In this document: piece after piece, positions 17,483-37,911 of the stretch
Layout: each line of letters opens with the position of its first letter
Position numbering within the stretch: the first letter of the stretch is position 1
DNA from: Streptomyces purpureus
Lineage (GTDB): Bacteria > Actinomycetota > Actinomycetes > Streptomycetales > Streptomycetaceae
Assembly (NCBI RefSeq): GCF_014648195.1
Contig: NZ_BMQQ01000003.1
Span: forward strand, 58,931-122,930
DNA: 64,000 nt
Reading direction: 5' to 3'
Program-made: the position numbers and the translations under genes
The notes under the pieces: model-generated
What the model was told of the DNA's origin: nothing
What the model saw: the letters and a program-made list of their open reading frames with translations, nothing else
Databases searched by the model: none

Positions 17483-17524
17483 ACACCGACGGCCGTCCCC
17501 CCGCTGGGGGACGGCCGTCGGTGT
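17483..17524. terminator. Perfect 19-bp hairpin after the DUF418 gene
   Basis: Bases 17483-17501 pair exactly with 17506-17524 around a CGCT loop. The element ends in GTGTTT and runs directly into the parS palindrome. It sits between convergent genes (DUF418 and bkdH) and could end transcription from both. Confidence 0.85.
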
Positions 17525-17537
17525 TTCACGTGAAACA
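17522..17537. other. parS site 1 (ParB-binding centromere-like site)
   Basis: TGTTTCACGTGAAACA is a perfect 16-bp palindrome containing the 14-base Streptomyces parS consensus GTTTCACGTGAAAC. It lies in the convergent intergenic gap, overlapping the right arm of the terminator by three bases. In Streptomyces such sites cluster around oriC, nucleate ParB and help segregate chromosomes during sporulation. Confidence 0.93.
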
Positions 17538-29639: not shown

Positions 29640-32494
29640 CGAACTGGTTCCACTCCTGGCGCGCCGCGGTGCGTATCGCCCGCCGTGACGCCTGGCGCTT
29701 CAAGGGACGCAGCTTCCTCGTCCTCGCGATGATCGCCCTGCCCATCCTCGGTGTGAGCGCCGCCGACCTCACCCTGCGCAGCTCCGAACTCTCCACGCAG
29801 GAAAAGCTGGAGCGCTCCCTGGGCGCCGCCGACGCCCGCCTCTCCGACCCCGAACTCGGCGGCGCTGCGATCCTGCAGAGCCCGGACGCCGAGAACTACG
29901 CCCCCGCCAAGGACTACGAGAACGCGCCCTGGCCCAGTGGCGGCACCGATGTCAGCAAGGCCGTCCCGGCCGGTGGCACCACCCTGGTGGACAGCTCGGG
30001 CGGCGCCAAGCTGCGTACGGCGCACGGTCTGCTGCAGACCGAGATACGTGAGCTGAAGGCCGCCGACCCGATGGCCCGGGGCATCATGACCCTCCAGCAG
30101 GGCCACTTCCCCAAGAAGTCCGACGAGGTCGCCGCGACCACCGCGTTCCTGGAGGCCAGCGGCCTGAAGGTGGGTCAGACCCTGACGGCCCGTGGCTTCG
30201 ACCGTACGTACCGCATCGTCGGCGCCTACGAACTGCCCAGCGACCTGAAGAACAGCCAGGTCAACGCGCTTCCCGGCGCCTTCCTCGCGCCGTACGGGAA
30301 GGCCCTCGAGGCGGCCGGGCTGCAGTCGCAGGGGGTCTCCACCACGTATCTGCTCAAGATCGACGGTGGTTTCACGTGGAACATGGTCGTGGAGACCAAC
30401 AAGAAGGGCGTGCTGGTCGCGTCCGCGGCCGTTCAGCTCAACCCGCCCGCCGACGCCGATGTGCCGCTCTTCCAGAAGGAGGGGTGGAACAACTACGAGC
30501 TGAGCGCGGGAGCGCAGGCCGCCGCGCTCGCCGCCATCGGCACGGTCGTCGGTCTCGCCATGCTGGAGATCTGCCTGCTCGCCGGTCCCGCGTTCGCCGT
30601 GGGCGCCCGCCGCTCGCGCCGCCAGCTCGGGCTCGTCGGCGCCAACGGCGGTGACCGCCGCCACATCCGCGCCATCGTGCTGGCCGGCGGACTGGTCATC
30701 GGTGTCGCCGCGGCCGTCATCGGCACGGTCCTCGGCATCGTCCTCACCTTCGCCCTCCAGCCGGTCCTCGAGGACTCCATGGGCAAGCGGTTCGGCAGCT
30801 TCGACGTCCGGCCGCTGGAACTGCTCGGCATCGCCCTGCTGGCCGTCCTCACCGGTCTGCTCGCCGCGATCGTCCCGGCGATCACCGCCTCCCGGCAGAC
30901 CGTCCTCGCCTCGCTGACCGGCCGCCGTGGCGTACGCCGCAGCAGCCGCGTCCTGCCCGTCGTCGGACTCGTCGCGGTCGCGACCGGTGCCGCCATCGCG
31001 CTGTACGGCTCCGTCGTCAGCGACCAGTTCGTCATCGTCGCGGCCGGCAGCGCCCTCGCGGAGCTGGGCGTCGTCGCTCTCACCCCCGCCCTGGTCGGCC
31101 TCTTCGGCCGGCTCGGCCGCTGGATGCCGCTGTCGCCGCGGCTCGCCCTGCGGGACGCGGTCCGCAACCGGGGCCGTACGGCTCCCGCCGTCGCCGCCGT
31201 CCTGGCCGCCGTCGCGGGCACCGTCGCCGTCGCCACGTACGCGGCGAGCAGGGACGCCCAGGACCGGGCCACGTACCGGGCCGAACTGCCCTACGGCGCG
31301 GTCTCCGTGATGATCGACGAGGACGGCGGCCGGGACGTCCCGGCCGTACGCGAGGCGGTGCAGCGGCACTTCCCCGTCGACCTGCGCGCCGATGTCGACC
31401 GGATCGCGGTCGGCAAGGCGAACTGCTCCTCGATGTACTCCGGCGAAAAGGGCTGCGGGCGCTACGAGATCGTCGTCCCGAAGGCCAACGTGTGCCCGCT
31501 GTGGGCTTCGACCACCGACGGTTCGGACCCCTCGGAGCGGTTCACCAAGGAGCAGCGGCGTGACCTCGCCAAGGACTGGCGCTGCGCGTCGAGCAACGAA
31601 GGCGGCGCCTACATCGAGGGCGGGCTGCTGATCGCCGACGCCAAGCTGCTGAAGATCCTCGGCATCAACGACAGCGCGGCCGAGAAGGCCCTCGCCGACG
31701 GCAAGATCGTCTCGTTCGACAAGCGCCAGCTCGACAAGGCCGGGAAGATCGGCATCAAGCTGATCACCGACACCGAGGCGGCCGACCGGGCCAGTGAGAA
31801 GGGCCTGGAGGCACCCGGCGAGACCAAGACGTTCGGTACGTACCTGATGCCCGACGGCACCAAGAGCTACGGCCTCTCCGGCGTCATCAGCCCGGCCACG
31901 GCCAAGGAGGCCGGTCTGCGTGCCGTCCCGTACGGTGCGTTCTACTCCACCGATCAGATGCCCAGCAGCGAGCAGCGGCAGAAGCTCGACGCGGAGATCG
32001 CCCGGATCGGCAGCGCCGCCAACCTCCACCTGGAGGAAGGATTCGTCAGCAAGAACAGCATCGTGCTGCTCGCCCTGACGGTCTTCGCCGGTCTCATCAC
32101 CATCGGCGCCGCCGGTATCGCCACCGGCCTCGCACAGGCCGACGCCGAGGCCGATCTGAAGACGCTCGCCGCCGTCGGCGCGCCGCCGCGGGTCCGCCGT
32201 ACGCTCAGCGGATTCCAATGCGGGGTGGTGGCCGCGATGGGTGTGGTGCTCGGGTCGGCGGCCGGTGTCCTGCCGGCGGTCGGGCTGCGCCTCACCGAGG
32301 AGCGCCAGGAGCTGAAGTTCTACCAGCAGGCCCTGGACGGGGGCTGGGGCGGCGTCAACCCGCCGCATGTGCCCATCGTCGTCCCGTGGGAGACGCTGGC
32401 GGCCCTGCTGGTGGCGGTCCCGCTGGGGGCCGCGCTGCTGGCCGCGCTGGTCACCCGCTCCCGTGGCGCGCTGGCCCGCCGCGCGGCGACCTGA
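29636..32494 (+). CDS. FtsX-type ABC transporter permease with large outer domains
   Basis: A 952-residue permease. A first membrane helix (FLVLAMIALPILGVSAADL) is followed by an outer domain of about 230 residues. A FtsX core of three helices comes next (residues about 295-425, with RRSRRQLGLVGANGGDRRHIR). Further helices follow, then a second outer domain (about 540-800) and a second FtsX core (about 805-950). The second outer domain has several cysteines (NCSSMYSGEKGCGR and NVCPLWAST), suggesting disulfides. GTG start at 29636 overlaps the ATPase stop. A near-match to parS lies at 30369-30382 within the gene. Confidence 0.9.
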   Translation: MTNWFHSWRAAVRIARRDAWRFKGRSFLVLAMIALPILGVSAADLTLRSSELSTQEKLERSLGAADARLSDPELGGAAILQSPDAENYAPAKDYENAPWPSGGTDVSKAVPAGGTTLVDSSGGAKLRTAHGLLQTEIRELKAADPMARGIMTLQQGHFPKKSDEVAATTAFLEASGLKVGQTLTARGFDRTYRIVGAYELPSDLKNSQVNALPGAFLAPYGKALEAAGLQSQGVSTTYLLKIDGGFTWNMVVETNKKGVLVASAAVQLNPPADADVPLFQKEGWNNYELSAGAQAAALAAIGTVVGLAMLEICLLAGPAFAVGARRSRRQLGLVGANGGDRRHIRAIVLAGGLVIGVAAAVIGTVLGIVLTFALQPVLEDSMGKRFGSFDVRPLELLGIALLAVLTGLLAAIVPAITASRQTVLASLTGRRGVRRSSRVLPVVGLVAVATGAAIALYGSVVSDQFVIVAAGSALAELGVVALTPALVGLFGRLGRWMPLSPRLALRDAVRNRGRTAPAVAAVLAAVAGTVAVATYAASRDAQDRATYRAELPYGAVSVMIDEDGGRDVPAVREAVQRHFPVDLRADVDRIAVGKANCSSMYSGEKGCGRYEIVVPKANVCPLWASTTDGSDPSERFTKEQRRDLAKDWRCASSNEGGAYIEGGLLIADAKLLKILGINDSAAEKALADGKIVSFDKRQLDKAGKIGIKLITDTEAADRASEKGLEAPGETKTFGTYLMPDGTKSYGLSGVISPATAKEAGLRAVPYGAFYSTDQMPSSEQRQKLDAEIARIGSAANLHLEEGFVSKNSIVLLALTVFAGLITIGAAGIATGLAQADAEADLKTLAAVGAPPRVRRTLSGFQCGVVAAMGVVLGSAAGVLPAVGLRLTEERQELKFYQQALDGGWGGVNPPHVPIVVPWETLAALLVAVPLGAALLAALVTRSRGALARRAAT

Positions 32495-33223: not shown

Positions 33224-34222
33224 TCAGGCCGGCGCGGGACCCTGCGGGGCCACCAGCAGGACCTTGCCCACGTGGGCGCTCGTCTCCACGGCGCGGTGGC
33301 CCTCCGCGGCGTCCTGGAGCGGCAGCGTGCGGTCGACGACAGGCCGGACCGCGCCCGCGCCGATCAGCGGCCAGACATGCTCCCGTACGGCCGCGACGAT
33401 CGCCGCCTTTTCGTGCAGCGGGCGGCTTCGCAGCGTCGTCGCCGTGATCGCGGCGCGCTTCGCCATCAGGGCGCCGATGTTCAACTCGCCCTTCACACCG
33501 CCCTGGAGACCGATGACGGCCAGGCGTCCGCTGACCGCGAGGGCGCGTACGTTCCGGTCCAGGTACTTCGCGCCGACGATGTCGAGGATGACATCCGCGC
33601 CCGCCCCGTCGGTCGCCTTGCGCAGCTCCTCCACGAAGTCCTGCTCGCGGTAGTCGATCAGGATGTCCGCGCCCAGCTCGGCGCAGCGGGCCAGCTTCGC
33701 CGGGCTGCCCGCGGTGACCGCGACCCGGGCGCCGACGGCCTTGGCGAGCTGGATCGCCATGGTGCCGATACCGCTCGCCCCGCCGTGCACCAGCAGCGTC
33801 TCGCCCGGCCGCAGGTGGGCGATCATGAAGATGTTGGACCAGACGGTCGCGGTCGCCTCCGGCAGCGCGGCCGCCGCGACCAGGTCGACGCCCTCGGGCA
33901 CGGGCAGCAGCTGGCCGACGGGGACGACAACCCTCTGCGCGTACCCGCCGCCCACCAGCAGGGCGCACACCTCGTCGCCGACGGACCAGCCGGAGACCCC
34001 GGGACCGAGCTCGGCGATGCGGCCGGAGCATTCGAGGCCGGGGTACGGGGAAGAGCCGGGCGGGGGATCGTAGAAGCCCTGCCGTTGCAGCAGATCGGCG
34101 CGGTTGACGGCGGTGGCCGCCACCTCGACGAGCACCTCGCCCTCGCCGGGCACGGGATCGGGCACCTCGGACCAGACGAGCGCCTCGGGGCCACCGGGTT
34201 CCGGAATCGTGATCGCATGCAT
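33224..34222 (-). CDS. NAD(P)H-quinone oxidoreductase (zinc-independent MDR, PIG3-like)
   Basis: A 332-residue medium-chain dehydrogenase/reductase. It has a GroES-like N-terminus (NRADLLQRQGFYDPPPG and YPGLECSGRIAELGPGV), the motif ALPEATATVWSNIF, and the Rossmann loop VHGGASGIGTMAIQLAKAVGA. The zinc-ligand pattern of alcohol dehydrogenases is absent. The closest class I recall is the PIG3/QOR family, which reduces quinones one electron at a time. It starts at ATG 34222, ten bases after the K+ channel stop, so it may be the distal gene of the mobA-moeA-channel operon. Confidence 0.88.
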   Translation of the reverse strand: MHAITIPEPGGPEALVWSEVPDPVPGEGEVLVEVAATAVNRADLLQRQGFYDPPPGSSPYPGLECSGRIAELGPGVSGWSVGDEVCALLVGGGYAQRVVVPVGQLLPVPEGVDLVAAAALPEATATVWSNIFMIAHLRPGETLLVHGGASGIGTMAIQLAKAVGARVAVTAGSPAKLARCAELGADILIDYREQDFVEELRKATDGAGADVILDIVGAKYLDRNVRALAVSGRLAVIGLQGGVKGELNIGALMAKRAAITATTLRSRPLHEKAAIVAAVREHVWPLIGAGAVRPVVDRTLPLQDAAEGHRAVETSAHVGKVLLVAPQGPAPA

Positions 34223-34232
34223 GGCGGCGAGG

Positions 34233-35324
34233 CTACTCGGGCGGGGTGGAGAGCGACGGGACCGGTCGCGCGCGCACGATCGTGATCAGCCGGTCGGTGA
34301 GCTGGAGCGGGTTGGCGGCCGGGTCGTCGTAGCCGAGCAGCCGGTGTCCGCGCAGCACGCTCACCACCAGGTCGTCGGTCTCCCGGGGGCTCTTGCCGAC
34401 CTCGCTCTTTATCACCGGCCGCTCGACCAGATCGAGGCCCGATCCCTGCTGGATCAGGTCCTCCATCACCGTGCCGGCGCTGGGGCTGAGGACCGACAGG
34501 CCGAGCAGGCGGCCGGCGGCGCTCGCGCTGGTGATGACGGCGTCCGCACCGGACTGGCGCAGCAGCGGCGCGTTCTCCTCCTCACGGACCGCGGCGACGA
34601 TCTTCGCGCCGCGGTTGAGCTGGCGGGCGGTGAGCGCCACCAGTACGGCCGTGTCGTCGCGCTGGGTGGCAATGACGATCTGGCGGGCCTTCTGGAGCTC
34701 CGCGCGCAGCAGGACGTCGCTGCGGGTGGCGTCGCCGATCACGCCGACGAAACCGTCTGCGTTGGCGGCCTCGATCACCTTGCTGCTGGGATCGACGATG
34801 ACGATCTGGTCCTTCCGGAGACCGGTCGCGCAGAGCGTCTGGATGGCGGAGCGGCCCTTCGTGCCGAATCCGACGATGACGGTGTGGTCGCGCAAGGTGG
34901 CCCTCCAGCGGTTCAGCCGCCACTCCTCCCGGGTCCGTTCCGTGAGGACCTCGAGTGTCGTGCCGACCAGGATGATCAGGAATAGCACCCGCAGCGGGGT
35001 CACCAGCAGCACGTTCACCAGCCGTGCGCTGTCGCTGTGGGGAACGATGTCGCCGTAGCCCGTGGTGGAGAGGGTGACGGTCGCGTAGTAGACGGCGTCG
35101 AGCAGGTCGACGCTGCCGTCGGCGTTGTCGTGGTAGCCGGCGCGGTCGAGATAGACGATGACGACGGTCAGTACGAGTACCCCGAGGGCCATCAGCAGCC
35201 GCTTGCCGACCTGCCGCAGCGGGCGTTCGACGAGTTTGCGGGGGATTTTGACCCGCGCGGTGTCGATGTGCTCGTCGGCGGTGCGCGCGATGGCGTCGTG
35301 GCCGTGAAGTTTCACGTGAAACAC
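34233..35324 (-). CDS. Potassium channel with RCK/TrkA-N regulatory domain
   Basis: A 363-residue channel subunit. Two membrane helices (residues about 43-59 and 101-125) flank the selectivity filter TTGYGD (87-92). A cytosolic RCK domain follows, with the Rossmann start VIVGFGTKGRSAI, the acidic end of strand 2 (IVIVDPS) and a TrkA-C-like tail. The start is GTG at 35324. The first codons are spelled by the parS palindrome and overlap the last 13 bases of moeA. Tetramers of such proteins conduct K+ gated by nucleotides or Ca2+. Confidence 0.92.
   Translation of the reverse strand: MFHVKLHGHDAIARTADEHIDTARVKIPRKLVERPLRQVGKRLLMALGVLVLTVVIVYLDRAGYHDNADGSVDLLDAVYYATVTLSTTGYGDIVPHSDSARLVNVLLVTPLRVLFLIILVGTTLEVLTERTREEWRLNRWRATLRDHTVIVGFGTKGRSAIQTLCATGLRKDQIVIVDPSSKVIEAANADGFVGVIGDATRSDVLLRAELQKARQIVIATQRDDTAVLVALTARQLNRGAKIVAAVREEENAPLLRQSGADAVITSASAAGRLLGLSVLSPSAGTVMEDLIQQGSGLDLVERPVIKSEVGKSPRETDDLVVSVLRGHRLLGYDDPAANPLQLTDRLITIVRARPVPSLSTPPE
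35309..35322. other. parS site 2, inside the moeA / K+ channel overlap
   Basis: GTTTCACGTGAAAC is an exact match to the 14-base parS consensus. It encodes the last codons and stop of moeA (TTC ACG TGA) in one frame and the first codons after the start of the channel gene (TTT CAC GTG AAA) in another. It lies 17.8 kb from parS site 1. Confidence 0.93.
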
Positions 35325-37042
35325 ACCCCTTCGGCCGGCCCCGTCGACGTCGCCGACCCCGCCGACCAGGGTAGGTCGAGGATCTCCAGTTCGTCCCCTG
35401 GCCGGGCGCCTCCGGGCGGTACGACGGCCAGACCGTCGGCGGCGGCGATGCCGCGCAGCATGGCGGGCCCGTTGTAGTGCAGCGGCAGGACCCCGCCCCG
35501 GCGGTGGGAGACCGGCACAAGCCGGGTGTCGTACGGGTGCCCCTGGACCTCTTCGTGCACGGGCACCCGGTACGGCTCCGGCTCCGGCCGGGCGGCCAGG
35601 GCGCGCAGCAGCGGTGCGGCGAGGGTGAGCAGGCCGGAGACGGCGGCGAGCGGGTTGCCGGGCAGTCCGACCAGATGCCTGCCGTCGGTGAGACGGGCGA
35701 GCAGCATGGGATGACCGGGGCGCACCTTCACGCCGTCGACGAGCAGTTCGGCGCCGGCCTTGCGCAGCACCGGGTGGACGTGGTCGACGGGTCCGGCCGC
35801 CGTGCCGCCGGTGGTGACGACGAGGTCCGCACCGGAGCCGGTGACGGCCTCGTGGAGGGCGTCGGCGGTGTCACCGACGCGCCGGACCGCGATGACGTCG
35901 GCACCGAGCGCCCCCAGCCAGGGGCCGAGCATCGGACCGAGTGCGTCGCGGATGAGCCCGTCGTGGGGGAGGCCTTCGGTGAGCAGTTCGTCGCCGAGGA
36001 CCAGTACCTCCACGCGGGGGCGGCCGGCGGTGAGCAGCTCGTCGTACCCGGCGGCCGCGGCCAGGCCGAGTACGGCGGGACTGACCACGGAGCCCGCGGG
36101 CAGCAGCGGATCGCCGGTGCGGCACTCCTGGGCGCGCGGCCGGATGTCCTGGCCGGGGACGACGTCCCGCAGGGCGTGGAGCCGGCCGGCGGCGTCGATG
36201 CGGGAGTGCTCCCTGCGGATCACGGCGGTGGCGTCCTGGGGGATCCGGGCGCCGGTCGCGATCCGTACGGCGGTGCCGTCGGCGAGGGGCTCGGTGGGCG
36301 CGTGTCCGGCCAGGACGGAGTCGTCCTGGCGCGGCTCCCAGGGCCCGGGTCCGGCGACGACCCAGCCGTCCATCGCGGAGGTGTCGAACGACGGCAGGTC
36401 GGTGAGCGCGACCAGCGGCCCGGCCAGCACGCGCCCGAGCGCCTCCGCCAGGGGTACGGCAACCGCCTCCCGCGCGCTCCCGCGCCCGGCCCGCGCGGCG
36501 ACGGCCCGGGCCTCGGGCCAGGTCGTGGAGCGGTGCGGCGCGACCGCGGAGGGCGAGGCGGGGGACGGGGCGGCCGCGGGGGCGGGGCCGGCGCCGGCCG
36601 GTGTGCTCTCCGGGTCTCCTGCGGGGGCGGCGGGCTGGGACGTCTCGTTCCTCGGGCCGGTGGGGCGGCCAGGGTCGGACGCGTCCGCGTACGGGCGCCG
36701 ATCCGCCGCTGCCGGGGCGGGCCCGAGCAGGGCGAGGGCGTCGTGCATGCCGTCGGAGTCGTGCGGGGCGAGGGGGTCGGTCAGGGAGACGTGGGGGGCG
36801 GGCAGGGACGCCTGGGAGCCGGGCAGGGACGGGTTGGGGCCGGGCTGGTGGGCATGGGGGCCGGGCTGGTGGGCGTCCAGGCCGTGGGCGGCGTGGGCGG
36901 CGCGAGGGTCGGTCAAGGCGTGGTCCGAGCCGTGCGCGGCCTGGGCGGCGTGGGCGGCGCGAGGGTCGGTCAAGGCGTGGTCCGAGCCGTGCGCGGCCTG
37001 GGCGGCGAGCCCGTTCTGGGGGGCGTGCTCCTGGGACGTCAT
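35312..37042 (-). CDS. moeA: Molybdopterin molybdenumtransferase MoeA with long repeat-containing N-terminus
   Basis: A 576-residue protein. The MoeA core (about residues 172-570) has LPSFDTSAMDGWVV, the MoCF-fold motif VVTTGGTAAGPVDHV, and GLPGNPLAAV. It inserts molybdate into adenylated molybdopterin to make molybdenum cofactor. About 170 residues of Ala/His/Pro-rich low complexity precede the core, including two perfect 19-residue repeats. The start is supported by an ATGA overlap with mobA upstream, so the extension seems genuinely translated; an internal start is possible. The stop lies inside parS site 2 and overlaps the channel gene. Confidence 0.88.
   Translation of the reverse strand: MTSQEHAPQNGLAAQAAHGSDHALTDPRAAHAAQAAHGSDHALTDPRAAHAAHGLDAHQPGPHAHQPGPNPSLPGSQASLPAPHVSLTDPLAPHDSDGMHDALALLGPAPAAADRRPYADASDPGRPTGPRNETSQPAAPAGDPESTPAGAGPAPAAAPSPASPSAVAPHRSTTWPEARAVAARAGRGSAREAVAVPLAEALGRVLAGPLVALTDLPSFDTSAMDGWVVAGPGPWEPRQDDSVLAGHAPTEPLADGTAVRIATGARIPQDATAVIRREHSRIDAAGRLHALRDVVPGQDIRPRAQECRTGDPLLPAGSVVSPAVLGLAAAAGYDELLTAGRPRVEVLVLGDELLTEGLPHDGLIRDALGPMLGPWLGALGADVIAVRRVGDTADALHEAVTGSGADLVVTTGGTAAGPVDHVHPVLRKAGAELLVDGVKVRPGHPMLLARLTDGRHLVGLPGNPLAAVSGLLTLAAPLLRALAARPEPEPYRVPVHEEVQGHPYDTRLVPVSHRRGGVLPLHYNGPAMLRGIAAADGLAVVPPGGARPGDELEILDLPWSAGSATSTGPAEGVCFT
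36891..37007 (-). repeat. 57-base tandem repeat in the moeA 5' region
   Basis: Two head-to-tail copies of a 57-base unit (36891-36947 and 36948-37004, matching on to 37007) encode the 19-residue unit QAAHGSDHALTDPRAAHAA twice. The copies look identical over their length, which suggests recent duplication, and the period is a multiple of three so the frame is kept. Confidence 0.88.
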
Positions 37043-37911
37043 CCGGCCTCGGTGCCCTTGGTGTCGCCCGGCTGTGACTCGGCCGCCCAGCGGTTGGCGA
37101 GCGCGGCGGCCTTGCGCGCCGCGTCGGCGACGGCTTCGGGGCCACCGCCCGCCCCGGCCAGCCCGGCCGCGTAACCGACCAGGAAGGTCGTCAGCGGCGC
37201 GGCGGGCCGCGCCACGCCGTGGGCGGCGTCACGGGCCAGATCGAGCAGCACGCCGGTGTCGACGTCGATCTCGATGCCCAGTTCGTCCTTGACTGCGGTG
37301 ATCCATTCGTCCAGCACGTTCCCATGCTCCCTGATGCGGGCGCGGGCCGCGGCAATGTCCCCCCAGGTGTCGCAGTCGAAGGAGGCCAGGGGCCGGGCGG
37401 CGACCCGGACGATTCGGAGTTCCTGGGTCAGAAGCCGCAGCGGCAGCCCCGAGAGGCTGCCGTGTTCGGTGGCGGCGAGGGCCAGCTCCCGCCGGAGCGG
37501 CTCCGTCCGGTACGCCGCGACGAGCGGCTGGTCCCGGCCGTCCGGGTCCACGCAGAGCGCCGCTTCCGCGCCGGCCTCCCGCCGCAGGGCGTGGAGCAGG
37601 TCCGCCACCGTCTCCTCGCCCAGGAAGGGCAGGTCGGCGGAGAGTACGAGGACGGTGTCGGCCCGGGCCTGCCGGACCCCGGCGTCGAGGGCGGCGAGCG
37701 GTCCGCCGCCGGGCGGGTCCTCGCGGGCCCAGACGACGGGCCGGGCGGTAGGCCTTCGCCCGCCGACGACGACGGTGCGCCCGGCGGTCCGGCACGCGGT
37801 CAGGACGCGGTCGAGCAGGGCGCGGCCGCCCACGCTCAGCGCGGGCTTGTCCGCCCCGCCGAGCCGCTTCGCGGCGCCCCCGGCGAGCACAATGGCGTCA
37901 TACGCGGTCAC
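37039..37911 (-). CDS. mobA: Molybdenum cofactor guanylyltransferase-like protein with DUF6457 domain
   Basis: A 290-residue two-domain protein. Residues 1-195 are a MobA-like nucleotidyltransferase: VLAGGAAKRLGGADKPALSVGG, then VLVLSADLPFL and GRDQPLVAAYR. It transfers GMP (or CMP) to molybdopterin. Residues about 200-275 match what I recall of DUF6457 (LDEWITAVKDELGIEIDVDTGVLLDLARDAAHGV and TTFLVGYAAGLAG), often found fused to MobA in actinobacteria. Its stop overlaps the moeA start (ATGA). It heads the mobA-moeA-K+ channel operon. Confidence 0.88.
   Translation of the reverse strand: MTAYDAIVLAGGAAKRLGGADKPALSVGGRALLDRVLTACRTAGRTVVVGGRRPTARPVVWAREDPPGGGPLAALDAGVRQARADTVLVLSADLPFLGEETVADLLHALRREAGAEAALCVDPDGRDQPLVAAYRTEPLRRELALAATEHGSLSGLPLRLLTQELRIVRVAARPLASFDCDTWGDIAAARARIREHGNVLDEWITAVKDELGIEIDVDTGVLLDLARDAAHGVARPAAPLTTFLVGYAAGLAGAGGGPEAVADAARKAAALANRWAAESQPGDTKGTEAG

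Follow-up and report, generated by a model that had tools for sequence, protein, structure and literature searches.

A perfect 14-bp parS palindrome lies across the junction of moeA and a potassium channel gene in the window analysed here (a stretch of 64,000 nucleotides from Streptomyces purpureus). It contributes the stop codon of one gene and most likely the start codon of the other, and the question it raises is whether selection at this junction acts on the centromere site as DNA or on the genes that run through it, and how such a site could have come to be built there.

The moeA-channel junction and the start of the channel gene

The site, GTTTCACGTGAAAC, occupies 35309..35322 (palindromic and thus without assigned strand) and agrees with the parS consensus in 14/14 bases, as originally predicted; its identification rests on this exact match and on the conservation described below. 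The genes around it are all encoded on the minus strand: a mobA-like gene (37039..37911), upstream in what appears to be an operon; moeA, for a molybdopterin molybdotransferase (35312..37042, a mechanical open reading frame whose start is provisional); the channel gene (34233..35315); and downstream of the channel, a PIG3-type NAD(P)H quinone oxidoreductase (33224..34222). The identities first given to the channel, moeA and mobA are borne out by profile domains, namely Ion_trans_2 and TrkA_N for the channel (an RCK-type K+ channel), MoeA_N, MoCF_biosynth and MoeA_C for moeA, and a MobA-like NTP transferase for mobA. Ahead of MoeA_N, which begins at residue 177, the moeA frame carries a repetitive, Ala/His/Pro-rich N-terminus of about 170 residues (36515-37042); its product scores nearly equally against the NCBIfam models for the divisome protein Glp (gephyrin-like) and for MoeA_actino, in both cases under the cut-off.

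The moeA frame ends TTC ACG TGA inside the site, as can be read directly, with the TGA at 35312..35314 on the minus strand. The channel frame does open at 35324 with GTG TTT CAC GTG AAA, as the original prediction had it, but the internal GTG (35313..35315, minus strand) is better supported as the start than the upstream in-frame GTG (35322..35324, minus strand). The Shine-Dalgarno-like motif GAAGGGG (35326..35332, minus strand) lies 10 nt ahead of the internal GTG versus 1 nt ahead of the upstream one. Such a motif is found in 167 of 179 parS-bearing channel loci, its end lying 8-10 nt ahead of the internal GTG in 160 of them (the remaining distances being 7 nt in two loci, 11 in one, 13 in three and 18 in one). 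At the upstream position 139 of the 179 loci have GTG and 28 have ATG; the other 12 have ACG, AGG, CGG or GCG, so that translation cannot initiate there. None of the eight loci in the set that lack parS and align as GTGAAG has an upstream start codon, and seven of them have a 4-bp GTGA overlap with moeA (the eighth, L129, has no readable moeA). A simple, custom-written gene caller based on codon usage also picks the internal GTG, although it scores the Shine-Dalgarno distance itself. On this comparison the channel most likely starts at the internal GTG, 35315-35313, inside parS; its overlap with the moeA stop is thus probably 4 bp (GTGA), and the 13-base overlap proposed earlier, which rested on the GTG at 35324 as start, probably does not exist.

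A stop and a start codon within one palindrome, at a near-constant distance from the Shine-Dalgarno motif, could also point to conservation at the RNA level, of a hairpin or an element for translation initiation that couples stop to start, the match to parS being secondary. The predicted hairpin is weak (-2.3 kcal/mol), however, and the 61-nt region around it folds no better than shuffled sequences (z +0.86); the RNA-structure reading was dropped on these grounds, and with the evidence from other loci given below it is scarcely plausible.

The parS array and a second probable start-codon site

Within the window, a search allowing up to three mismatches returns three matches: the junction site, a second perfect parS between convergent genes (17523..17536, no strand) and a site with a single mismatch (GTTTCACGTGGAAC; 30369..30382, no strand) inside an FtsX-family gene, 4.9 kb from the junction site. 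Shuffled windows give 0.67 matches on average, and three or more in 3 of 100 shuffles. The genome-wide count is the better test of the site: the host genome (7.54 Mb in 94 contigs) holds 14 perfect copies and 16 with at most one mismatch, while a reversed-pattern control finds none in either search. Thirteen of the 14 perfect copies are confined to 141 kb of contig C3 (76.4-217.3 kb), which also carries parA and parB motifs at 162.5 and 163.7 kb; the junction site (C3:94239) lies about 68 kb from parA. The ParB encoded there (L315:4418-5518) matches TIGR00180 parB_part with 200.6 bits against a cut-off of 58.45, and its ParA neighbour scores under the NCBIfam cut-offs (ParA_partition, 112.4 against 180). 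DnaA-box counts did not place oriC, and the genome stretches examined showed no DnaA motif. All 150 genus genomes searched contain perfect copies, 5-40 each, with a reversed control of 0 in every one. The junction site thus combines the 14-bp consensus, clustering with parAB and rarity elsewhere, an encoded ParB and, in one clade only, conservation in excess of coding constraint; on these four grounds it is classed as a chromosomal parS.

Of the 13 perfect sites on C3, all of which were classified with the gene caller, seven lie between convergent genes. This distribution, with the same 14-mer at 13 other places in the genome, is hard to reconcile with an element of stop-start coupling. Several sites have features of their own. 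Four intergenic ones (C3:167506, 176722, 176766 and 209361) sit within longer perfect palindromes, with 9-11 extra bases per side; three of these lie between convergent genes and might double as transcription terminators. The lone perfect copy on contig C26 (C26:12166, L319) lies inside a longer inverted repeat resembling a terminator hairpin. At C3:162080 (L315:3180) a mechanical open reading frame running into parA opens at a parS with GTG TTT CAC GTG AAA (MFHVKRR...). More generally, start codons that annotation places a little upstream of a start-codon parS merit checking.

A second site of the array (C3:217328) coincides with the beginning of cydCD (CydD, TIGR02857) in the same register as the junction site, GTG at site position 8 being the likely start in both; it differs in that the upstream gene, which we take to be cydB from the gene order, stops 10 bp before the site, leaving no stop codon inside. 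In a search of 40 genomes, the site is perfect at the gene start in 29 of the 30 loci taken from the best 30 matches. In three of these 29 the upstream codon is CTG, and the internal GTG must therefore serve as start there; six of the 29 have further perfect copies just upstream, and in the thirtieth locus (L369) the copy at the start has decayed and a perfect one lies 36 bp upstream of it. In the three genomes surveyed with the gene caller, a sample too small for judging enrichment, sites at start codons number 2 of 13 in the host stretch, 3 of 14 in G093 and 1 of 21 in G013, while seven sites in each lie between convergent genes. In G093 a third gene has a likely start codon inside parS, again in the same register (C1:4100478, L379). 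One might take this to mean that parS has repeatedly been put to use as a translation start in Streptomyces (at moeA-channel, at cydCD and, in one other genome, at this third gene), and that ParB loading on the initiation regions of membrane and respiratory genes could couple to their expression in sporulation, when parAB is induced; we regard this extension as unlikely.

Conservation, and persistence without the channel

The junction was compared across the genus in two sets. The first, of named genomes, consists of the best 80 of 543 candidate loci, and 79 of these 80 are perfect at the internal GTG, with one mismatch there in the last (L046); this set is biased, being ranked by similarity and collected in part with a seed peptide that spans the N-terminus. 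The second, broader set came from searches with a channel query lacking residues 1-15, run on 392 genomes of the genus (80 of them a second time) and on 121 of the family; stretches were extracted for 140 of the places listed. The 304 loci entered into the comparison gave 249 channel alignments and, after removal of non-aligning N-termini and identical junctions, 194 non-redundant loci: 175 with a perfect site, 4 with one or two mismatches and 15 without a site at that place, though in one of the 15 (L123) a perfect site does lie slightly upstream, at the moeA stop. Thus 175 of 179 site-bearing loci are identical over all 14 columns, and this conservation of the exact sequence speaks against an RNA element. 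By a strict walk of the moeA frame, 160 of the 179 have the moeA stop within the site's GTGA (168 by a looser test, 152 in an earlier version); among the loci that do not match are L008 and L028, in which the frame breaks upstream. Site, stop and start are accordingly conserved jointly in most of the Streptomyces examined.

Common descent and protein-level constraint might by themselves preserve such a sequence, given that gene order is conserved and that overlapping frames limit the freedom of the codons. By parsimony on a moeA tree of 124 loci, however, the 14 columns of the site have undergone 5 changes, against at least 76 (mean 184) in each of 127 14-column windows over channel positions +9 to +149, where third codon positions average 23.3 changes; the 14 columns immediately upstream of the site have 203. 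This count uses only loci with a site at two or fewer mismatches and is to that extent biased towards conservation. The second codon of the channel points the same way, being AAA rather than AAG: it is AAA in 178 of 179 parS loci but AAG in all eight GTGAAG loci without parS, and AAA makes up 74 of 916 lysine codons in the channel body of the 124 loci. Together with extra copies of the exact site and its retention outside coding sequence, already contradictory in the channel-less genomes described below, these figures make coincidence a very improbable account.

The conservation is not universal. Among 234 loci binned by MoeA identity to the window's protein (near-identical loci included, no clade chosen), 91 of 95 are perfect at 70% identity or more and 156 of 169 at 66% or more, whereas below 66% 18 of 65 are perfect and 47 have no site. 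The moeA tree (FastTree, last 25 residues excluded) contains 224 non-redundant loci, one of the 235 supplied having been skipped and the remainder being identical. On it 167 rows were scored perfect, requiring 7 state changes, and the best-fitting clade holds 166 of them in 172 rows. Two rows scored as misses owing to a broken moeA frame (L008, L093) have perfect sites, so that after correction the clade has 168 perfect rows of 172, three with one mismatch (L145, L151, L421) and one with none (L323); as this clade was selected by score, its 98% is flattering and the identity bins are the fairer measure. At least two perfect copies occur in 16 of the 172 rows. Outside the clade 51 rows have no site, and one on a long branch (L135) has two perfect copies. 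In other genera of the family the site is found in 0 of 38 stretches at the channel, although all 16 genomes searched have 2-15 perfect parS elsewhere; the bare GTGA overlap occurs in some basal lineages and in L168, from another genus. The expectation that the junction would be conserved across Streptomyces therefore holds for one large clade and fails for basal Streptomyces and other genera. The simplest history, and the most likely one from these sequences, would be a single gain on an existing GTGA junction with strong retention thereafter, with a few extra events possible given the many weak forks of the FastTree tree. A group of divergent channel copies (L238-L279), with the site in 0 of 42, had been considered as a case of many losses, and this was rejected: the stretches span the 5' end of the channel copy, and in several genomes that copy is oriented away from moeA; a moeA-based search splits such loci into two kinds, those in the main clade, whose moeA end carries the site, and basal ones, which have none.

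Genomes without the channel separate the site from the gene. In 16 of the 392 genus genomes there is no channel match better than 1e-11, and these were searched again by moeA. Ten yielded the end of moeA but, with 1.5 kb of flank included, nothing in the locus resembling the channel, and nine of the ten retain a perfect site, either at the moeA stop (G326, G117, G026) or 15-46 bp past it (G144, G234, G169, G286, G240, G244); in the tenth (G275, the lineage of L323) channel and site are both lost. The six with the shifted stop form exactly one clade and count as one event, while the other three site-keepers are scattered over a clade of 36 rows. Of the remaining six of the 16, five (G001, G050, G120, G168, G313) have no moeA match at threshold and G374 belongs to the lineages without parS. 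Where only fragments of the channel are left, the site is still perfect at the moeA stop in five loci (L321, L322, L329, L330, L339), and in a sixth (L420) it lies 43 bp past the stop. There are also 24 loci whose best channel similarity falls on the opposite strand: 14 of these are perfect (12 at the moeA stop; L343 and L441 33-39 bp past it), one (L421) has one mismatch, and the nine without a site all fall outside the site-bearing clade. In some loci, finally, stop and start have come apart and the exact site has multiplied, so that both the moeA stop and the channel start have copies; the highest number is that of L398 (G062), with five perfect parS in about 115 bp at the moeA end, a local expansion of centromere repeats.

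The original prediction held that both reading frames are fixed by the site. This does not stand, for nine of ten channel-less genomes keep the site, six of the nine with the stop 15-46 bp upstream of it; these genomes also speak against an RNA element of the channel start. Since the site is kept in nine of ten genomes without the channel, the unit of selection would appear to be the DNA site, and the pattern suggests that selection preserves this site rather than the genes, with the frames accommodating it.

The same loci bear on a regulatory account of the conservation, in which ParB bound at the site would control the mobA-moeA-channel operon, perhaps as a transcription roadblock at the channel start. 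In Pseudomonas aeruginosa, ParB represses promoters adjoining parS3 and parS4 (PMC7022226); in Streptomyces venezuelae it spreads up to 2.5-3 kb (PMC12511625), a range within which all three genes could sit; and the start-codon arrangement is seen again at cydCD. Yet the site lies at a start codon within an apparent operon, it persists in nine of ten genomes with no linked channel to control, and it is perfect in 14 and one mismatch short of it in one of the 24 loci where a diverged channel copy lies on the opposite strand. The channel-less and opposite-strand loci argue against control of the channel, and less strongly against control of moeA; as the reason for conservation, operon regulation is quite improbable. 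Effects of ParB on expression of the operon are possible all the same, because of the repression beside two parS in P. aeruginosa.

Origin of the junction site and comparison with known parS

The reading we favor, and hold with high confidence, is that the junction carries a genuine parS of the outer array, most likely gained once on a GTGA junction and kept for ParB loading, not for channel control. It starts from what was observed directly, namely the sequence and position of the site, its conservation, its persistence without the channel, the tandem copies and the cydCD instance. The gain would have occurred in the ancestor of the main Streptomyces clade, on an older moeA-channel junction with a 4-bp GTGA overlap. 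The parS core, TCACGTGA, has GTGA on both strands, so that a site could be built around such a stop/start junction at little cost to either gene: moeA would come to end in Phe-Thr-stop, the channel would open with (M)K, its lysine encoded by the rare AAA, and the spacer between the Shine-Dalgarno motif and the start would consist of the left half of parS. By extension from published work on S. venezuelae, ParB-CTP dimers would load at the site and slide for a few kb, and the loaded ParB would assist, by way of ParA and SMC, in the organisation and segregation of the origin region. On this view the junction site would count among the loading points in the outer part of the array, and selection for this function, not for control of the channel, would keep its sequence. 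These considerations suggest that a centromere array could gain and keep sites in gene-dense DNA by building on gene junctions. They also make the junction a natural experiment, in which the channel has been lost, fragmented or replaced while the site was kept, so that selection on a DNA site can be told apart from selection on the genes.

The behavior assumed for ParB is documented for related arrays. S. venezuelae has 16-17 parS and S. coelicolor 24, near oriC (PMC4852455, PMC12511625); the motif printed in PMC4852455 is GTTTCACCTGAAAC, which is taken here as a misprint. ChIP-seq shows ParB bound at S. venezuelae parS, from which it spreads up to 2.5-3 kb, and far less without SMC (PMC12511625, PMC4852455), and ParB is needed there for SMC binding and for arm alignment (PMC8410768).

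Searches of openly licensed PMC papers, in 16 of which the 14-mer itself occurs, gave no title or abstract opening on parS at moeA or cydCD, or on parS start codons; none of the papers combines parS, Streptomyces and moeA, and the four with cydCD are by their titles unrelated. These searches turned up no parS that provides one gene's stop and another gene's start codon across a large clade and that outlasts one of the two genes. Coding DNA as such is already known to contain parS. The Bacillus subtilis parS inside spo0J (parB) is a coding site, internal to one gene and, unlike the junction site, not known to overlap the start of a neighbor. In Corynebacterium glutamicum, parS1, the site furthest from oriC, lies in the coding sequence of trpCF (PMC7083940); it is coding like the junction site, but falls within one gene, no stop or start codon being described for it in the accessible passages of that paper. 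The closest relatives are the chromosomal parS of Streptomyces themselves (PMC4852455, PMC12511625): gene context and coordinates are absent from the accessible parts of those reports, whereas here one site is placed at a stop/start junction and its conservation measured, and the published sites are likewise palindromic, present in many copies and clustered centrally near oriC.
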